From Candidatus Anadelfobacter sociabilis (lineage in GTDB: Bacteria > Pseudomonadota > Alphaproteobacteria > Rickettsiales > Midichloriaceae), in the NCBI RefSeq assembly GCF_021811825.1, contig NZ_JAJBJC010000003.1, positions 1-37,393 on the forward strand: a stretch of 37,393 nucleotides of DNA. The letters run 5' to 3'. Below are positions 2,339 through 36,559 of this stretch, piece after piece; position 1 is the first letter of the stretch, and every line of letters starts with the position of its first letter. A program made the translations under genes and the position numbers. Below the pieces are notes generated by a model. That model was not told the origin of the DNA. It searched no databases and was given only the letters and a program-made list of their open reading frames with translations.

Positions 2339-5300
2339 ATGTATAAATGTGGAGTAAGTATTTTTTTAAGTATCATAATATTGGTATTTTCTTGCAGCAT
2401 TTTTAGTTATGAAGTGAATGCCAAAGTTGATATAATCGACACTGCAGCAGTTATCAATAAAGCTAATATAGCCTATACAAAGATATTATTTTTTACACCA
2501 AATAATAGCCAAGATAACAACGATGTATCACAAATAACTTTGCAGTTTGATAAAAATTTATCAACTTTGATAGATGATACATCAAAAATACCTATAACAA
2601 TTTTCCCAAAATTAGATTGTAGTTGGTTTTGGGCAAATGACAATACCCTTGCTTGTAATACTATATCTAGCAGTTTAAAAGATGCTACACGATATACCTT
2701 AAAAATTAAAGGAGGGAAAAAAATTGAAGGCACAGATATAATTATAGATCGCGACTACACACATACATTTGTATACCATCCACTAAAAATATTAAATATA
2801 AATTTATTTGAGTGGGAAAAACCCAATCTACCAGTACTTTTGCTGACATTTAATCAGCCTGTAGAAAAACAATCTCTCATTGAGAATACGTTTTTTATCA
2901 AAAATAACAAAAGTAAAAAGATCATAGATAAAGTTAAAGCTATACTGTCTGTATATGAGTTAGTAGCTGAAGGAAATAAAAAAAATACAGTATGGAAAGT
3001 CAGACCTCAGTCACCATTAGAATATGATCAAGAATATAAACTGATCATAGAACCCAAAGTCACACCAATTACTGGTGATACAACGTTATTACCTCAAAAA
3101 TTTATAAGAGACAATGTTATCAAAACATATCCTAAGGTACCAAAAATTGTATCTATATCATGTATGAATCAAGAGTTTAAAAGAATGTACATCAAAGTTG
3201 GTGAAAAAATTGATACAAACAGTAGATGCGATACACAAAGTGGTGTAGAAGTCAATTTCAATACACCAATTAACTTAGATTTAGCAAAGTGTTTTTTGAA
3301 TATCTCTCCAACAATTAATAAAAAATTAACAACCGAATATTGCAAATTAATAACAAAAGATAGTGACATTGATTTTTCTACCAATACCGCTATCCGCAGT
3401 AGCGATAATAACAACAAAAACACTAAATATAGTACAAAATTTTTTATAACAGATCTAAAGCCTAATACGAGTTATACAATTTCCGCGCAGAGTATACAAT
3501 CACCTACTTTCATAGATAAAATTAGATCATTTTTTTGGCAAAAAGATATACAAAATTCCCAAATTAAAGACATATTTGATCGCAATATTAGTGCCAACGA
3601 ATCAGTACAATTTTTAACTTCACACCTTAGTCCAGAATGCGATGTAAAAAAATACACAATTCTAGAAAAGAACATTGATACAGATATGCAAGTTAATATG
3701 ATTAATATAGAGAAGCTTTCGTTATCTTATAATAAATTTTATTACAACGGCGCAGAACACAATCTATTAAATGAATATAATTTCAATAAAAAAGAAGATG
3801 AATTGCTAGCATTACCTTTAAAAATCAGAGATATACTAGGAGGAAAGAGTGGGCTTATTAGTGGATATTTACATACATTTCCAAAATCTGGGGGGGAAAA
3901 GGAATTTTCTGCACAAGTTACTCCGTTCAATATAGTTGCGAAAATTGGACATTTTAATTCATTAATTTGGATAACCGATTTAGGAACTGGAAGACCTGTT
4001 TCTGATGCGAATATTGAATTGACATGTGGCTCAATAAAGTACGATCCACTACAAAAAATACTTGCTGCATCTAAAACAGACCAAGATGGAGTCGCAATAT
4101 TCAAGCAAACAAAAAATTTGTATTGCGATAATAACTCATTAGAGTTTTGTTGTGATTTTTATAACCCGCAAGAAAAAAATAAACAATTCATGGTAATTGC
4201 AAAAAAAGATAAAGATATTGGAATACTGCCTTTATCAAGTAGCTTTAAATTTGGAGTAGGTCAATCATCTTCACATCAATTCTTAGCTAAAAACTCAGAG
4301 AGTGATGTTCTGTTTTTTGTAATCACCACACAAGAACTATATAAAGCCGGAGATTTGGTACAATACAAAATATATGCACGAAATTTAGATAAGAATGGTA
4401 TTACGAAATACCATTCTGCTATGAAGTACAAAATGATTGTTAGTGATACAGAACAAAAAGTCATACATACTGTGGATAATATTGCATTTTCAGAATTTGG
4501 CACATATGCAAATGAATTTATGTTAGAATCAAACGCAAAATCTGGTTTATATCACATCGAAATACAAGCATTTAAAGATAATGAAGTAGTATTTTCACAG
4601 AATATTGGCAACATATATGTTTCAGATTTTATACCATCTTCATTTAAAATTAATACAACTATACAAAAAGAATCATATAGCCTAGGAGATACTATAGAAA
4701 TCAAGACTGAAGCCAAATTTTATTCAGGAACACCATATATCGAAAAAGATGGAAAACTATTTGTAACACTTTCTCAAGCTGATCTATCAGCAATAATCAG
4801 AAATCCTACATTAAAAGATTTTCACTTTAATGATATTAAAGCGAATGATGGAGAACAATATACAAAAGAAAAATCTGAAATTTTATCTCAAGTCTACATA
4901 AAAACTGATCAAAACGGAATAGCGAAAAACAAAATAGAAATTCTACCAAATGAATTATATTATGGAAAAATAAGTGCAAAAAGCATAATATATGACGAAC
5001 GTGGAAGATCACATTCAAGCTCTGCTTCTAAACCGTATTTTGGAGTAGATAGATTTGTAGGATTACGCAAAAAACAGTGGGTATATAACATCAATCAAGC
5101 CATAGAAATTGAGGAAATTGTAATAGATACAACCGGTAATTTACTAGAAGGAGTAGATATTACATCAATACTAGAAAAAAAAGTATTAAAATTAAAAACT
5201 AAACACAATTCTCATAATATTGATGATACTCAATATACGATTGAATGGCATAAAATTGCTGATTTTCATAACAAATCGAGCATTGAACAAATTGAAAAAT

Positions 5301-8300
5301 GTGTTTTTGTAGCAAAGGAAGCTGGAGAATATCGTATTGTTGCCACTATAGAAGATTTAAAGGGACATGCACACAATAGTATTATTGATATTTTTATTAT
5401 TGGTAATGAAGAATATACACCCACAATACAAAAAGAGGAAAGTATTATTGAAATTATACAAAATAAACAACAGTATAACGTAGGAGAAATAGCACACTAC
5501 TTAGTGAAGGGGTTACACAAAAACACTACTGCATTGATAACTGTTGAAAGAAATGGAGTATTAGATAGTTTTGTACAAAAACTTACTCCCGATAAACCAA
5601 CAGTAGATATTTTAATAAAAGAGAATTATCTACCAAAATTCAATTTATCTATTACGACTTTTTCTCAGCGTACGGATAATACAGAAATACAAGATACTAT
5701 TGGAGCTGTATCTCAACGAAAGCTAGACGATGCCGCTAGACCAATTATTAAAATGGGATATGCACAATCTGAGATTGTTAATCCGGAAAAACATATAAAA
5801 CTTATCATTACTCCAGATAAAATAACATATAGACCACGTGAAAAATGTAAAATAATGATACAGAGTAGTAAAAAAGATATACAAGAACTCGCAGTAATAA
5901 TTTTTGATAGCAGTATTTATGAAATACTAAAAAGAGATTATAGTTCCTTCAATATAGATAAAATTATACAAAAAAATTATAACAATGTTTCAATAAGTAA
6001 TTTTAATTTGATAAATAACCTAAGAGGTAAGGAAAAGATTATTAAGTTTTCTGATACAATAAATACTGTAAATTCATCTAATAATGGAATTTACAATAAA
6101 ATTCAAAACCAATCTCAAGATACAATAGAATCTGGAATAAGAAATATAGATAGTAAATATGCTGCATATTGGGCTCCACAACTACTCACTGATAAAACTG
6201 GTAAAGCGCAGGTAGAATTTCTCATTCCTGATAACTTAACTGAATGGAAAGTAATTGTCATTGCAAATTCTCAAGAAAATGAGTTTGGTTCAAACATTGA
6301 AAAACTAAGTGTTGCAAGAGAATTAGAGTTACGCCCTATTGGGCCATCACATGCCTATAATGGTGATAAATTTTTAGCAGGATTTAGTATATTAAATAAT
6401 ACAGATGCTAAACATGACTTGGATTTTTCTATGTCAATTACTGGTGGAGTTGAAAAGGAAATAAATTATACAAAAAAATTTAAAGATGTTTTACCAAAAG
6501 CTAATATACTTTCTCTCACTAATATAAGCACTATACATAATAATCAAATACAGAACATATTAGAGAATCACGAGATCAACATCAATGGAAAAATTTCTAC
6601 CACAGATGGTAAGGAGAGTGATGCGCTAAAACATGTTATAAAAATTTATCCACTATATGATTTAGAAACTACTACAAAATTTGGTGTGATAAGAAATTCA
6701 AGCATCATAGGTGATATCAGTATTCCAAAAGAAGTGATTCCACAAATAAGTTCGATCACAATATCAGCTTCTCCAACGATAGTAGGAGATATTACTCCAA
6801 TAATAAGAAATACAATAGATTATCCTTATTCTTCGTGGGAGCAGAAAATCTCTAAGGCATTGATAGCATCTTATTATAAAAAGATTCTTGAAAAAGATTA
6901 TAAAGATATTTTGATGTGGTCAGAAGCAGAAGATTTAATCAAAAACACATTAGCTGAGATGATTAATTATCAAGCAGCAGATGGAGGTATGCACTATTAT
7001 AAAAATAGTAATATTACAGATAAATATCTTAGTGCATATACTATGATAGCTTTAATCTGCATTAAAGCTTTGGGATATAACGTTCCTGAAACTAGTATAA
7101 ATTCTCTTATAAAATATTTGCATAACATCGTACTTGATACAAAAGATATTTATAAAAACTCTCAATATCTCGACGATGCTATACCAATTGCACTATATGG
7201 ATTATCCACAAATAATGCATTAGATCGAAACGAATTACAATTCTATATTGACCATATACAAAATGCTAATCTTGCCAGTAAAGCTTATTATCTCAATGCT
7301 GCATATAAAATAGGAGATACTGAATCTATAAAAAAAATCATAAAATCAATATTGAGTCATAGTAATCAGACAACAACTGGTATATGGTTTACTGATACAA
7401 GCAATGTTGCAGCACAGTATACATTAAACTCAGAACTGCAAACAAATTGCCTGATTTTAGATATATTCACAAGAATTGGAGGAAGTGAAAACCTAGGATA
7501 TAAGGATTCGAGACTTTTGGTAAATAATATACCATCTAGATTAATGCACTCAATAAGAGATGAGTTGAATTCACAAAAATATGGTGGATATGGAAATACT
7601 CATGAAAATGCGATTTGTATATCTGCGATAGCTAATTATGTAAAAACATATGAAGCTGATGTTGCAAATGTCAGTATGGATATCAATATTTCCTCTGAAA
7701 AATATAAAATGAATTTCACCAAGAAGATTAGTGAAGTGAAGGTTGTTACATATAAAATAAGAGATAAAGACATCTCTGATAAAGTAAAAATAAAATTACG
7801 ACCAAGCAATAATGCTACTGCAGATAGTATATCACAAGTAAAAAGTAAAGAATTCGATTTGATTGAACAACAATTGTATTATACTATAAGATTGGATTAT
7901 ATAAGACAAAATCTAGCAAAAAAGTATAATAATTCTGGATTCGAAATACATAAAGAGTATAGTCTTTGGAAAGACGGTGGTTGGTTACTTCTCAATAATG
8001 CTAATGATGAACAGGAAGTTTTTCTGCATTTAAAAAAAGGCGATGTAGTAAGAGTGGATATTTATTTAATCACTCCCGCTCTTAGGCATTTTGTTGTAAT
8101 TGATGATAGCATCGCTGGTGCTTTTGAAATATTGGATACAAATTTAGATAGTATATACCACACTTATAAAGAAATTATTGACAGCTCTCCTCCAAAGAGT
8201 AATTTGCTTGTGCAATATAAAGATAATTGGCAAAACTGCAGTATGAAATCTTTAAGCTCCAATAATTGCGCTGTCCAAGATAGAGGATTTTCGTCTGTAC

Positions 8301-8494
8301 AAATTACAGATAGTGCAATTAGATTTTATTCACAAAAACTTAATAAAGGAAAGTATCATCTAAGTTATTTAACAGAAGTTGTATCAGAAGGAAGTTTCGT
8401 GGCATCACCAATAAAAGCAATTGAGATATATAATAAGAATGTGAGTGGATCTGGTGTATATAATAATATCGAAGTAAAGAAAGAAAACAGATAA
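2339..8494 (+). CDS. Large bacterial alpha-2-macroglobulin, thioester cysteine replaced
   Basis: Bacterial A2M proteins act in the periplasm or on the envelope as protease traps thought to protect the cell. This 2051-residue protein is longer than the usual 1600-1900. It starts with a signal peptide: hydrophobic residues 7-23, probable signal-peptidase I site after VNA (28); VFSC at 16-19 is a poor lipobox. A beta-rich macroglobulin-repeat body follows. The A2M domain begins at YWAPQLLTDKTG (from 1277), followed by PDNLTEWKVIVIANSQ. The thioester site, normally YGCLEQ or similar, reads YPYSSWEQ (1495-1502): Glu-Gln are kept but Cys is Ser1499, so no thioester bond can form. A helical toroid region and a C-terminal MG domain follow. 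E. coli pairs one A2M with pbpC; here PBP1a is about 19 kb away. A G7 tract lies at 3890-3896. Confidence 0.92.
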   Translation: MYKCGVSIFLSIIILVFSCSIFSYEVNAKVDIIDTAAVINKANIAYTKILFFTPNNSQDNNDVSQITLQFDKNLSTLIDDTSKIPITIFPKLDCSWFWANDNTLACNTISSSLKDATRYTLKIKGGKKIEGTDIIIDRDYTHTFVYHPLKILNINLFEWEKPNLPVLLLTFNQPVEKQSLIENTFFIKNNKSKKIIDKVKAILSVYELVAEGNKKNTVWKVRPQSPLEYDQEYKLIIEPKVTPITGDTTLLPQKFIRDNVIKTYPKVPKIVSISCMNQEFKRMYIKVGEKIDTNSRCDTQSGVEVNFNTPINLDLAKCFLNISPTINKKLTTEYCKLITKDSDIDFSTNTAIRSSDNNNKNTKYSTKFFITDLKPNTSYTISAQSIQSPTFIDKIRSFFWQKDIQNSQIKDIFDRNISANESVQFLTSHLSPECDVKKYTILEKNIDTDMQVNMINIEKLSLSYNKFYYNGAEHNLLNEYNFNKKEDELLALPLKIRDILGGKSGLISGYLHTFPKSGGEKEFSAQVTPFNIVAKIGHFNSLIWITDLGTGRPVSDANIELTCGSIKYDPLQKILAASKTDQDGVAIFKQTKNLYCDNNSLEFCCDFYNPQEKNKQFMVIAKKDKDIGILPLSSSFKFGVGQSSSHQFLAKNSESDVLFFVITTQELYKAGDLVQYKIYARNLDKNGITKYHSAMKYKMIVSDTEQKVIHTVDNIAFSEFGTYANEFMLESNAKSGLYHIEIQAFKDNEVVFSQNIGNIYVSDFIPSSFKINTTIQKESYSLGDTIEIKTEAKFYSGTPYIEKDGKLFVTLSQADLSAIIRNPTLKDFHFNDIKANDGEQYTKEKSEILSQVYIKTDQNGIAKNKIEILPNELYYGKISAKSIIYDERGRSHSSSASKPYFGVDRFVGLRKKQWVYNINQAIEIEEIVIDTTGNLLEGVDITSILEKKVLKLKTKHNSHNIDDTQYTIEWHKIADFHNKSSIEQIEKCVFVAKEAGEYRIVATIEDLKGHAHNSIIDIFIIGNEEYTPTIQKEESIIEIIQNKQQYNVGEIAHYLVKGLHKNTTALITVERNGVLDSFVQKLTPDKPTVDILIKENYLPKFNLSITTFSQRTDNTEIQDTIGAVSQRKLDDAARPIIKMGYAQSEIVNPEKHIKLIITPDKITYRPREKCKIMIQSSKKDIQELAVIIFDSSIYEILKRDYSSFNIDKIIQKNYNNVSISNFNLINNLRGKEKIIKFSDTINTVNSSNNGIYNKIQNQSQDTIESGIRNIDSKYAAYWAPQLLTDKTGKAQVEFLIPDNLTEWKVIVIANSQENEFGSNIEKLSVARELELRPIGPSHAYNGDKFLAGFSILNNTDAKHDLDFSMSITGGVEKEINYTKKFKDVLPKANILSLTNISTIHNNQIQNILENHEININGKISTTDGKESDALKHVIKIYPLYDLETTTKFGVIRNSSIIGDISIPKEVIPQISSITISASPTIVGDITPIIRNTIDYPYSSWEQKISKALIASYYKKILEKDYKDILMWSEAEDLIKNTLAEMINYQAADGGMHYYKNSNITDKYLSAYTMIALICIKALGYNVPETSINSLIKYLHNIVLDTKDIYKNSQYLDDAIPIALYGLSTNNALDRNELQFYIDHIQNANLASKAYYLNAAYKIGDTESIKKIIKSILSHSNQTTTGIWFTDTSNVAAQYTLNSELQTNCLILDIFTRIGGSENLGYKDSRLLVNNIPSRLMHSIRDELNSQKYGGYGNTHENAICISAIANYVKTYEADVANVSMDINISSEKYKMNFTKKISEVKVVTYKIRDKDISDKVKIKLRPSNNATADSISQVKSKEFDLIEQQLYYTIRLDYIRQNLAKKYNNSGFEIHKEYSLWKDGGWLLLNNANDEQEVFLHLKKGDVVRVDIYLITPALRHFVVIDDSIAGAFEILDTNLDSIYHTYKEIIDSSPPKSNLLVQYKDNWQNCSMKSLSSNNCAVQDRGFSSVQITDSAIRFYSQKLNKGKYHLSYLTEVVSEGSFVASPIKAIEIYNKNVSGSGVYNNIEVKKENR

Positions 8495-19659: not shown

Positions 19660-20409
19660 TTAATATTTAACATATTTATTTACATTTTTTAAAACTATAT
19701 CAAATTTATATATCACTACATCACGTTCTGGCAAAATTTTCTTATCTACTGTATATTTTTTTGCAATTAACAACTTTCTAACATCGATATTTTTAAAATA
19801 TTTCATCATAAATTTATCTTTTTCCAATATACTATCTTCTGGAAAATACATTTGAGTAATAAATTCATTAAAATCTTGATGTCTTATAGCAAAATTAATG
19901 TGGGGTAATCTATATTGCGAATCTGTTCCTGGAACAATTGTGTATATCTTATATTGTCCTAAATTATTTGTTATTGCAGTACCAGAGCCAACAAAATTTT
20001 TATCAGCATTTTTCATAGATTCCATGCTTAGTGTGAGATTTGATTCTGGTATATCATCATAATAATTACTATCATAGCCATTTGCATCAAGCTGCCATAT
20101 CTCTACCACTGCATTTGGAACTGGGACACAATTTTTGTCTAATATTCGACCTTCAATTATTATGTAAGTACCATTGGCGAAATCAGCACTTCCAACATAA
20201 CGCCACAAATTATTACCCATATATATATTTGGTTGTCTCTTTTTATCCCAAACCATGGGAGTCTCTCTACAATCAACACTAATGGATATTCTGTTTTCAG
20301 AATATCCATAACATGGAGAATGATCTGATATAAAAAAACAAGTTATGGTAATTAATAAAATTATACAAAATTTTATACAAAATTTGAGATTGTAATTTAT
20401 ATCGAACAT
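19660..20409 (-). CDS. Exported intradiol-dioxygenase-like protein (PcaH-like), iron ligand changed
   Basis: Resembles the beta subunit of protocatechuate 3,4-dioxygenase, a family with small single-gene homologues in Rickettsiales. From the ATG at 20409 (249 residues) a hydrophobic segment (about 13-27, FCIKFCIILLITITCFF) points to export or membrane anchoring. The core is present: GRILDKNCVPVPNAVVEIWQ (87-106), DANGYDSNYYDD (108-119), GSGTAITNNLGQYKIYTIVPG, then YRLPHINFAI. Classical enzymes bind Fe(III) with two Tyr and the His pair of HIHF. Here the pair is His170 and Asn172 (HINF), so the site lacks one ligand. Aromatic-ring cleavage is therefore doubtful; a structural or altered role is possible. 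The partner PcaG is not nearby. The frame is open to a TTG at 20448, but the ATG is preferred. Confidence 0.8.
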   Translation of the reverse strand: MFDINYNLKFCIKFCIILLITITCFFISDHSPCYGYSENRISISVDCRETPMVWDKKRQPNIYMGNNLWRYVGSADFANGTYIIIEGRILDKNCVPVPNAVVEIWQLDANGYDSNYYDDIPESNLTLSMESMKNADKNFVGSGTAITNNLGQYKIYTIVPGTDSQYRLPHINFAIRHQDFNEFITQMYFPEDSILEKDKFMMKYFKNIDVRKLLIAKKYTVDKKILPERDVVIYKFDIVLKNVNKYVKY

Positions 20410-20553
20410 ATAAAAAAATAAAATGTATGCATATACTTGTTTAATCAATCTTACTACATCAATAACGCGCGTTACTAGACTAAATAGTAATGGTAAATGA
20501 AAAATTATATTGTTGCAATATTAAGAAATTGAAAGTGACAGAATTAATTATAT

Positions 20554-33864: not shown

Positions 33865-34779
33865 TTAGTTTACCGCCTTCTGAGATTTTTTATCTCTAAT
33901 TTTTTCTATAGATTCCAATACAATACTATGAATTTTTTCAATACCAAGAGTGGATGTATTAACAAAAATTATATTATCGTGTGTATTGTTTCGATAAAAT
34001 TTAATGACGGGTTTAGTCTGTTTTTTGTAGATTTTAATACGTTTGTGTAATGTCTCAACAGAATCGTCGGCTCTGACTTCTTCTTTGCCAGTGCAGCCTT
34101 TAATGCTAATCTCGTTATCATTCAATTTTATTTTACCTAAATTATGATTAGCACAATCTATGCGATTTTTTAATCTATCTAATATTACCTTTTCTTTTGC
34201 ATTTAAAACAATAATTATAGGTTTTGCATTAGCATTTTCTTTTGACAATATATTCTCCAATGCTTGCGCTTGTCCTATAGTTCTTGGGTATCCGTCTAAA
34301 ATAAACCCATAACGACAGTCCTCTTCTTTAATACGATGTTCAACTAATTGATTTACTATTTCTTCATTAACAAGCTTTCCACTTTTTACTGTCATAGATA
34401 ATTTCTTCTCTACTGAATTTTCTTTAGAATCGGTAGTTGCTTTTTTTAAGCTATCTCTTATAAGTTGCCCCGTAGATATTTGTGGTATCCCGTATTCTTT
34501 CTCTATAAACCTAGCTACTGTACCTTTACCAGAAGCGGGAGGACCCATTAATACCAGTATTAGTTTTTCATTATCTTTTATAGGTTTTTGTTTAAGTAGA
34601 TGAGAATTTTCTGTCTTATTATTGTTTATAGTAGAATATGGATCTTGTGCATGTGCAATACCATGACTTAACATATAATGTGCTATCAAAATCACTCCAG
34701 CAGAAATATATACCCCGTAGGAATATATCTTGTTTTGTACAATACTTCCAATTTTTACTCGATTTAGAGATGTAAACAT
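33865..34779 (-). CDS. Adenylate kinase with an N-terminal signal peptide (probably exported)
   Basis: Adenylate kinase (ATP + AMP to 2 ADP). Start: the ATG at 34779 has AAGGA seven bases upstream, better than the ATG at 34794 or a TTG at 34812. The 304-residue protein has about 70 residues before the kinase core. They form a signal peptide: Lys/Arg-containing N-region, hydrophobic stretch (about 22-40, YGVYISAGVILIAHYMLSHG), then AHA followed by Gln-Asp, a good signal-peptidase I site after residue 44. A polar linker follows. The core is intact: P-loop GPPASGKGT (79-87), QISTGQLIRDSL (Asp of STGD is Gln), ILDGYPRTIGQAQAL, and RADD, HKR and QT in the LID/core. The LID keeps two Cys about 20 residues apart, not a zinc-finger set. 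Cytoplasmic Adk normally starts at the P-loop, so this may be a second, periplasmic paralogue. Confidence 0.9.
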   Translation of the reverse strand: MFTSLNRVKIGSIVQNKIYSYGVYISAGVILIAHYMLSHGIAHAQDPYSTINNNKTENSHLLKQKPIKDNEKLILVLMGPPASGKGTVARFIEKEYGIPQISTGQLIRDSLKKATTDSKENSVEKKLSMTVKSGKLVNEEIVNQLVEHRIKEEDCRYGFILDGYPRTIGQAQALENILSKENANAKPIIIVLNAKEKVILDRLKNRIDCANHNLGKIKLNDNEISIKGCTGKEEVRADDSVETLHKRIKIYKKQTKPVIKFYRNNTHDNIIFVNTSTLGIEKIHSIVLESIEKIRDKKSQKAVN

Positions 34780-34787
34780 ATGGCTAT
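34768..34787 (-). promoter_or_regulatory. Shine-Dalgarno site that fixes the adenylate kinase start
   Basis: On the minus strand AAGGA lies seven bases before the ATG at 34779. Neither of the two upstream possible starts has such a site. The choice shortens the N-terminal region so that it reads as a normal signal peptide. Confidence 0.55.
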
Positions 34788-35239
34788 CCTTCATATTTAT
34801 ATATAAAAACAAAACACACGCACATTATAAAGTACAATATAAATAATATCTATACAAAAATTATATTTAATTAATATTAAATGCGGTGTATTTTTATTTG
34901 AGATGGGATGCTATATAAATGATAATAATCAACGCAAATATTAGTTATGATATGTGATGACATTTCAATATAGGGAATAATCGACAAGACTGGATATATC
35001 AAATATTTATTTGGAATAGGCGTTTCTTAGATAAGACTATGAATTTTCAATAAAACATAAATAAGTAGGTAATTTACCTAATTTTTATGTGATCTGATTA
35101 TCTGTACTTCTATTCATTTTGTATTTTTTACTATCACTTATAAAAATACATAGTTATACAAAGAGAGAATATTTAGTAACAATCATTAATCCCGCTTCTA
35201 GCACATTACATTATTATATAAATACGTGTGTGGTTGTAA
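34780..35239. other. Gap between nupC and the adenylate kinase gene
   Basis: 460 bp without a supported gene. It holds the TAGGTAA/TTACCTA hairpin at 35066-35080 and probably the adk promoter. Short protein-like pieces near 34960-35040 are broken by stops and were not called. Confidence 0.4.
35066..35086. terminator. Palindromic hairpin, possible nupC terminator
   Basis: TAGGTAA-T-TTACCTA, in practice a six-base stem with a three-base loop, followed on the plus strand by ATTTTT and on the minus strand by T-rich but interrupted sequence. It is about 160 bases beyond the nupC stop. Terminator or operator is undecided. Confidence 0.3.
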
Positions 35240-36559
35240 TTATGTTAATGCTCCTATCAGGCTAGCACACATGCAATTCGAAAATGTTCCAGCTAATACT
35301 GCCTTTGATCCAAGAACAATTACTTCACTACGTCTTTCTGGAATTACAACGCTATATATTCCTATTATTATCCCTATACTACCAAGATTCGCAAATCCAC
35401 ATAAAGCGTATAACACTATTAATCTTGAGTGTTCTGATAGTTGTGAGCCCATTTCGGCGAATTTAGTAAATGCTACTAACTCATTGGTGATTATCTTTGT
35501 TCCAATTAATCCACCAGCTAATTGAGCTTCTTCCCAAGGAATGCCTAACAAAAACATCAAAGGTGATATCAGAATTCCAAGTACCCTTTGTAAACTAATT
35601 GTTTCACCGTTATTAAATGGAATCAAATTTAAAATATTTTTTGGTATACAGCCCAAAATTTGGTCTACTATATCTATAAGCGCTATAAATCCTATAATCA
35701 TTATTATTATCATGATTACTACTTTTGCGCCATCAACTATACCACTAGAGATAGCGTCTAATGCGCTTTGTGTATGAGATAGTTCCATGTCGTTTGCTTC
35801 TGTTAGGTGCGCTCCAGATTTTGGTGGAATGATTATCATCGAAAGGGCTAAAGCAAGTGGAATATTAATTATTGCAGCGGTTATGATGTGACCTATAACG
35901 TTTGGTAATAATGATCCTACTATTATACTGTATATTACAAGCACAGAGCCTGCTGTACCTGCTGTACCACAAACCATAAGACTAAAAAGTTCGCTGCGAG
36001 AGAATTTACTGAGATACGGTTTTACAACTAATGGAGTTTCGCTCAGACCAGTAAATAGATTAGCAGAGACAGCAATACCTAGAGTACCGCCTATACGTAA
36101 GGCTTTATGAAAGAAAAATGAGAAAATATTGATAATAAACGGCAAGATTTTTAAGTAAGTAAGAAGATAGCTTATAGCTGAAATAACTATAATCATCGGA
36201 AGTCCTTGTGTGGCTAGTATAAAACCCAAGCCAGAATTTTGTGGTGGATTTGCAAGGCCACCAAAACATACAGCAACCGCTTTCGTAGTAGCTGTCCCCA
36301 CCGATTGCAAAGCACTATTAATACTACTAAATGCATCAACCACAGAAGGTATCTTTAATAAGCATATTGCTAGCACTATCTGCAATATAATGCACCTTAT
36401 AATATTTGAGTACTTTATATCAGATCTTTTTTCGCTTAAAATCCAAGCAACAAAAAAAAACACTAATCCTGATACAAACGGATATAAGAATCGAAATAAA
36501 TGTATGTTACTCATTGACAAATACAACATATAGATGTGAAGAACGCAAATCTCGTTCAT
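35240..36559 (-). CDS. nupC: NupC/CNT-family nucleoside transporter
   Basis: Concentrative nucleoside transporter that imports nucleosides with H+ or Na+. The 439 residues are strongly hydrophobic, with about ten membrane segments. CNT marks are AVCFGGLANPPQNSGLGFILATQGLPMIIVISA, the helix-hairpin region NLFTGLSETPLVVKPYLSKFSRSELFSLMVCGTAGTAGSVL (with the substrate-binding G-x-x-E-x-P), and the second repeat with LLGIPWEEAQLAGGLIGTKIITNELVAF and YALCGFANLGSIGI. The ATG at 36559 is open, but family alignment suggests the ATG at 36514 (MSNIHLF); neither has a ribosome site. It lies upstream of the exported adenylate kinase on the same strand, 460 bp apart, which suggests, but does not prove, a shared role in nucleotide scavenging. 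Confidence 0.92.
   Translation of the reverse strand: MNEICVLHIYMLYLSMSNIHLFRFLYPFVSGLVFFFVAWILSEKRSDIKYSNIIRCIILQIVLAICLLKIPSVVDAFSSINSALQSVGTATTKAVAVCFGGLANPPQNSGLGFILATQGLPMIIVISAISYLLTYLKILPFIINIFSFFFHKALRIGGTLGIAVSANLFTGLSETPLVVKPYLSKFSRSELFSLMVCGTAGTAGSVLVIYSIIVGSLLPNVIGHIITAAIINIPLALALSMIIIPPKSGAHLTEANDMELSHTQSALDAISSGIVDGAKVVIMIIIMIIGFIALIDIVDQILGCIPKNILNLIPFNNGETISLQRVLGILISPLMFLLGIPWEEAQLAGGLIGTKIITNELVAFTKFAEMGSQLSEHSRLIVLYALCGFANLGSIGIIIGIYSVVIPERRSEVIVLGSKAVLAGTFSNCMCASLIGALT

Follow-up and report, generated by a model that had tools for sequence, protein, structure and literature searches.

A second adenylate kinase with a predicted export signal and its possible role beside the Tlc nucleotide translocase in intracellular alphaproteobacteria

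Energy parasitism of the Rickettsiales type is usually described as an exchange of ATP and ADP across the inner membrane alone. The translocase Tlc, which swaps host ATP for bacterial ADP, is the means of this parasitism (review, PMC9352585), and its gene was gained several times independently in the Rickettsiales (PMC10847448). In mitochondria, the adenylate kinase AK2 resides in the intermembrane space and adjusts the adenylates ahead of the translocator exchange (reviews, PMC4309032 and PMC2680645). Secreted adenylate kinases, in turn, are virulence factors of some pathogenic bacteria (review, PMC2680645).

The DNA analysed here, a stretch of 37,393 nucleotides referred to as the window, contains an adenylate kinase gene, adk2, whose product has the fold, the P-loop, the NMP and LID domains and the catalytic arginines in common with the bacterial adenylate kinases (PF00406; TIGR01351; E. 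coli Adk, PDB 1ake), but differs from them in being a second copy and in the 71 residues at its N-terminus, which contain a predicted export signal. Its LID holds a partial zinc site (C209, H212, C229, K232), whereas zinc-binding adenylate kinases have four ligands. The sequence similarity to AK2 is at the level of the general family, and by analogy with AK2 the proposed place and task of the enzyme would lie between an inner membrane bearing an adenylate translocator and an outer membrane that adenylates can cross (PMC4309032, PMC2680645). The two localisations have no evident shared origin. The adk2 product uses a predicted Sec signal, its translocator would be Tlc and not a mitochondrial carrier, and energy would on balance flow inward. 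Like the secreted enzymes of pathogens (PMC2680645), it is predicted to act outside the cytoplasm, but here a dedicated second gene encodes its own signal, which is of the lipoprotein type in three relatives. The enzyme family is known; in the literature searched, which included few subscription journals, neither a signal-bearing nor a periplasmic adenylate kinase was described for these bacteria.

The initial annotation had given the coordinates of the gene correctly, to which we add that it lies on the minus strand (Table 1). Its description of an intact adenylate kinase core was confirmed by profile searches and by the active-site residues. The Pfam ADK profile PF00406 matched residues 77-265 (4.9e-43; 147.3 bits against a cut-off of 26.8), the NCBIfam profile TIGR01351 was exceeded as well (175.8 bits against a cut-off of 168), and the alignment with E. 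coli Adk reached 1.6e-32. The P-loop and all six catalytic arginines (108, 166, 202, 206, 236 and 247) are kept in two alignments; in the LID, C209, H212 and C229 are kept and K232 replaces the fourth zinc ligand. The AlphaFold2 (AF2) model, for which alone adenylate kinase genes of viral contigs served as input, shows a confident adenylate kinase fold from about residue 72 (core blocks mostly 84-97, LID 68-70), and the top Foldseek matches of this model are adenylate kinase structures. With its core and catalytic residues intact, the product is apparently a competent adenylate kinase, as far as can be read from its sequence. A search of PHROGs with the product returned weak P-loop matches and nothing more, and promoter matches at the locus were no commoner than in shuffled sequences.

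Table 1. Coordinates of adk2, its parts and its upstream neighbour in the window
Feature	Position	Strand	Basis or remark
adk2 CDS, predicted exported adenylate kinase, 304 aa	33865..34779 (incl. stop codon)	minus	ORF, PF00406, TIGR01351
Shine-Dalgarno sequence AAGGA	34787..34791	minus	7-nt spacing before ATG at 34779
Predicted Sec signal peptide, residues 1-44	34648..34779	minus	sequence reading, hydropathy against window controls, AF2 helix 15-38
Polar linker, residues 45-71	34567..34647	minus	mostly low pLDDT, regular structure absent (AF2)
Adenylate kinase core, residues 72-304	33868..34566	minus	PF00406, alignments, AF2, Foldseek, E. coli Adk alignment
P-loop GPPASGKGT, residues 79-87			
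Concentrative (CNT) nucleoside transporter	35240..36559	minus	PF07662, PF01773, PF07670

The N-terminus of the product reads MFTSLNRVKIGSIVQNKIYSYGVYISAGVILIAHYMLSHGIAHA, followed by QD after a predicted cleavage site between A44 and Q45. A basic n-region (residues 1-21), with a net charge of +3 ahead of the hydrophobic stretch, precedes that stretch (residues 22-33) and a c-region ending in AHA. The parts of the classical signal peptide previously described for this protein, namely a basic n-region, a hydrophobic core and the AHA-QD site, are all present, but the predicted signal is weaker than was claimed: about 12 hydrophobic residues were found instead of about 19, and the best 19-residue Kyte-Doolittle mean is just 1.48. 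The best 12-residue mean is 2.20, compared with 0.59-2.07 in the cytoplasmic proteins of the window (12 of 12) and with 2.48-3.23 in eleven further N-termini of exported or anchored proteins, so that it is the weakest of that set. In the AF2 model a helix at residues 15-38 is predicted with low confidence, and residues 39-72 are devoid of regular structure. No close relative was found in which the conservation of this N-terminus could be followed.

The weakness of the hydrophobic segment would fit a N-terminus that results from neutral drift or from a mis-called start, the protein being cytoplasmic. We hold this to be improbable, since the Shine-Dalgarno sequence fits the ATG at 34779, as the initial annotation had stated, and since second adk copies elsewhere repeatedly bear signals. 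A second in-frame ATG 15 nt upstream would leave the signal the same. Between the hydrophobic segment and the P-loop, reading of the sequence revealed no in-frame start with a well-placed Shine-Dalgarno sequence, and an unextended product from adk2 is therefore unlikely. The long n-region and weak h-region are unlike those of a textbook cleaved signal, and might instead anchor the protein in the membrane uncleaved, with its kinase domain on the cytoplasmic side, which would place ADP recycling at the inner membrane. The main adk of one genus (f19 genus g50) also has an N-terminal membrane segment, and those genomes need cytoplasmic activity. Since positive charges precede the hydrophobic segment, however, the kinase is predicted to lie outside, and in relatives the signals of G005, G018 and G121 (lipoprotein type) and of G118 (ALA-GD) indicate export, which makes a cytoplasm-facing anchor a poor candidate. 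Export of the adk2 product, predicted to proceed via Sec, is on these sequence grounds quite likely.

A second, unextended adk had been expected near secY. It is present in the same assembly, on contig C70 (7331-7921), but beside rpe instead; this gene and adk2 on the window contig C131 are the two that match PF00406 above the cut-off. The C70 gene starts a few residues before the P-loop, as is usual, and its product clusters with the plain (cytoplasmic) copies of the family in one tree (98/85), the grouping being unsupported in another sampling. It would be the essential cytoplasmic enzyme in the division of labour proposed below. As the assembly, in 817 contigs, is 85.5% complete, a third copy may exist in the organism. 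The fragmentation of the assembly and its 3.2% contamination also raise the possibility that C131 and C70 stem from different organisms brought together in one bin, the extended enzyme then being the sole adenylate kinase of its owner and the extension a decoration; tetranucleotide profiles do not discriminate as to a shared origin. The two contigs nevertheless have nearly the same GC content (0.306 against 0.309) and have an insertion sequence in common (91% identical across 615 bp), which argues for a single organism, short of proof. Furthermore, the single-contig genome G018 carries a plain and a lipoprotein adk about 2 kb apart, which shows that genomes of the family do contain the two copies side by side, and a mixed bin is very improbable.

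A survey of 344 genomes of the order (probably Rickettsiales) was made first with the adk2 product and afterwards with a profile built from these adenylate kinases, and the genomes with multiple matches were inspected. Clear export signals were seen on the second adk of four genomes, namely of the lipoprotein type in G005 (lipobox LVAC), G018 (LSSC) and G121 (LVSC) and of the signal peptidase I type in G118 (ALA-GD). A fifth genome, G213, has a possible signal (SEA-KN) with an Asp in its n-region, the second copies of G125 and G127 have membrane-anchor N-termini, and that of G270 is without a signal. Beyond the order, two adk matches were obtained in ten genomes of a class-wide sample of 385. 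Among these, the second copy of G551 has a signal-like N-terminus; in that of G581 a signal-like stretch follows a poly-T tract and the likely start is in another frame, whereas no export signals were seen on the remaining second copies that were read. The exact extension of adk2 is thus not conserved among homologues, but the same functional type recurs on second copies. The main adk copies that were fetched start about 6-18 residues before the P-loop, except in f19 genus g50.

A Sec signal by itself delivers a protein no further than the periplasm, and in three relatives the lipoprotein signals would keep the enzyme attached to the envelope. A secretion of the adk2 product beyond the envelope, where it would act on host nucleotides in signalling or on the host energy charge in the manner of the secreted virulence factors mentioned above, is accordingly hard to credit.

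Given the supported branches, the exported state must have changed at least three times in two tree samplings; these trees do not separate gains from losses, and several of their rows are long branches. The firmest of these cases are G018 and the pair of G118 and G121, followed by G005. The plain and lipoprotein copies of G018 are sisters in all three trees (100/99), which indicates a duplication, and the exported copies of G118 and G121 pair with 98/96 or better, both genes lying downstream of rpoC. The exported copy of G005 falls, in one sampling, among other copies of the family in a supported group. That of G213 is the sister of the plain copy from the same genome in one tree (95/90) and stands beside that of G581 in another sampling. 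The adk2 product itself forms an unplaced long branch in all trees; a pairing with the exported copy of G005 was not rejected (AU test, p 0.43). A single origin of the three exported copies of the family was set aside on a borderline AU test (p 0.042). A horizontal origin of adk2 from another class was also considered, as the best match within the phylum comes from a genome that is not of this class (43% identity), but is not claimed, given the long unplaced branch.

The assembly of the window organism encodes a Tlc nucleotide translocase (G000:C288), in line with the earlier suggestion that the enzyme acts alongside ATP/ADP translocases. Each of the ten genomes that have an adk candidate of the exported, anchored or frameshifted kind also encodes Tlc. 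This co-occurrence carries little weight within the family, where Tlc is nearly universal (21 of 23 genomes, compared with none of the 14 named control genomes), and G551 and G581, from outside the order, add some weight to it. Most relatives with Tlc are without an exported adenylate kinase, which would therefore be dispensable, an accessory to the translocase. A periplasmic or secreted adenylate kinase, as initially annotated, is supported by the plain second adk, by Tlc and by the recurring signals on second copies, while the export itself is predicted.

The best explanation, although one on which we remain evenly balanced, is that an exported adenylate kinase equilibrates ATP, ADP and AMP in the periplasm beside Tlc; provided that the enzyme is exported, such a coupling to Tlc becomes likely. 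The adk2 product would reach the periplasm via Sec, while the C70 copy would cover the essential cytoplasmic work. Host adenylates would enter the periplasm through outer-membrane pores, and the enzyme would hold the reaction 2 ADP <-> ATP + AMP at equilibrium next to Tlc. ADP expelled by Tlc could in this way be turned into importable ATP, and AMP together with ATP into exchangeable ADP.

The next gene upstream of adk2, on the same strand, encodes a CNT nucleoside transporter, possibly of relevance to purine uptake. It would suit an exported enzyme that serves nucleotide scavenging independently of Tlc, in which adenylates are interconverted, dephosphorylated and taken up as nucleosides. Yet the two genes are 460 bp apart, and the exported adk copies elsewhere have different neighbours (fmt and a peptide-type transporter in G018, polA nearby in G005, rpoC in G118 and G121), so that we consider scavenging unlikely. 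Equilibration beside Tlc, if true, would add an enzyme step outside the inner membrane, would alter the range of host adenylates, AMP among them, that can be used, and would offer a testable parallel to the mitochondrial management of adenylates. The wider proposal, that exported adenylate kinases arose repeatedly and independently in intracellular alphaproteobacteria as a convergent counterpart of AK2 and serve energy parasitism through Tlc by keeping host adenylates at equilibrium in the periplasm, is put forward tentatively and is somewhat less probable than the role of the single enzyme.

Several further features were observed in these genomes. The main adk of f19 genus g50 bears its N-terminal membrane segment at seven loci (L106, L107, L108, L110, L115, L116 and L119), and several of these genes have an internal Met just before the P-loop, which could yield a second, soluble form. 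At locus L173 (G581:C128) the signal-like N-terminus is interrupted at the poly-T tract by a change of frame, which may reflect a sequencing error, phase variation or decay. The plain adk of G005 (L036; G005:C16, ~5035-5811) carries a large in-frame insertion that separates the DGFPRT region from the LID. In the window itself, positions 12-600 are an insertion-sequence transposase region that recurs on C70 at 91% DNA identity. Positions 2339-8494 (plus strand) encode a bacterial alpha-2-macroglobulin of 2051 residues with a signal-like N-terminus, and positions 19660-20448 (minus strand) an intradiol dioxygenase-like protein (PF00775) with an N-terminal hydrophobic segment, which is possibly exported.
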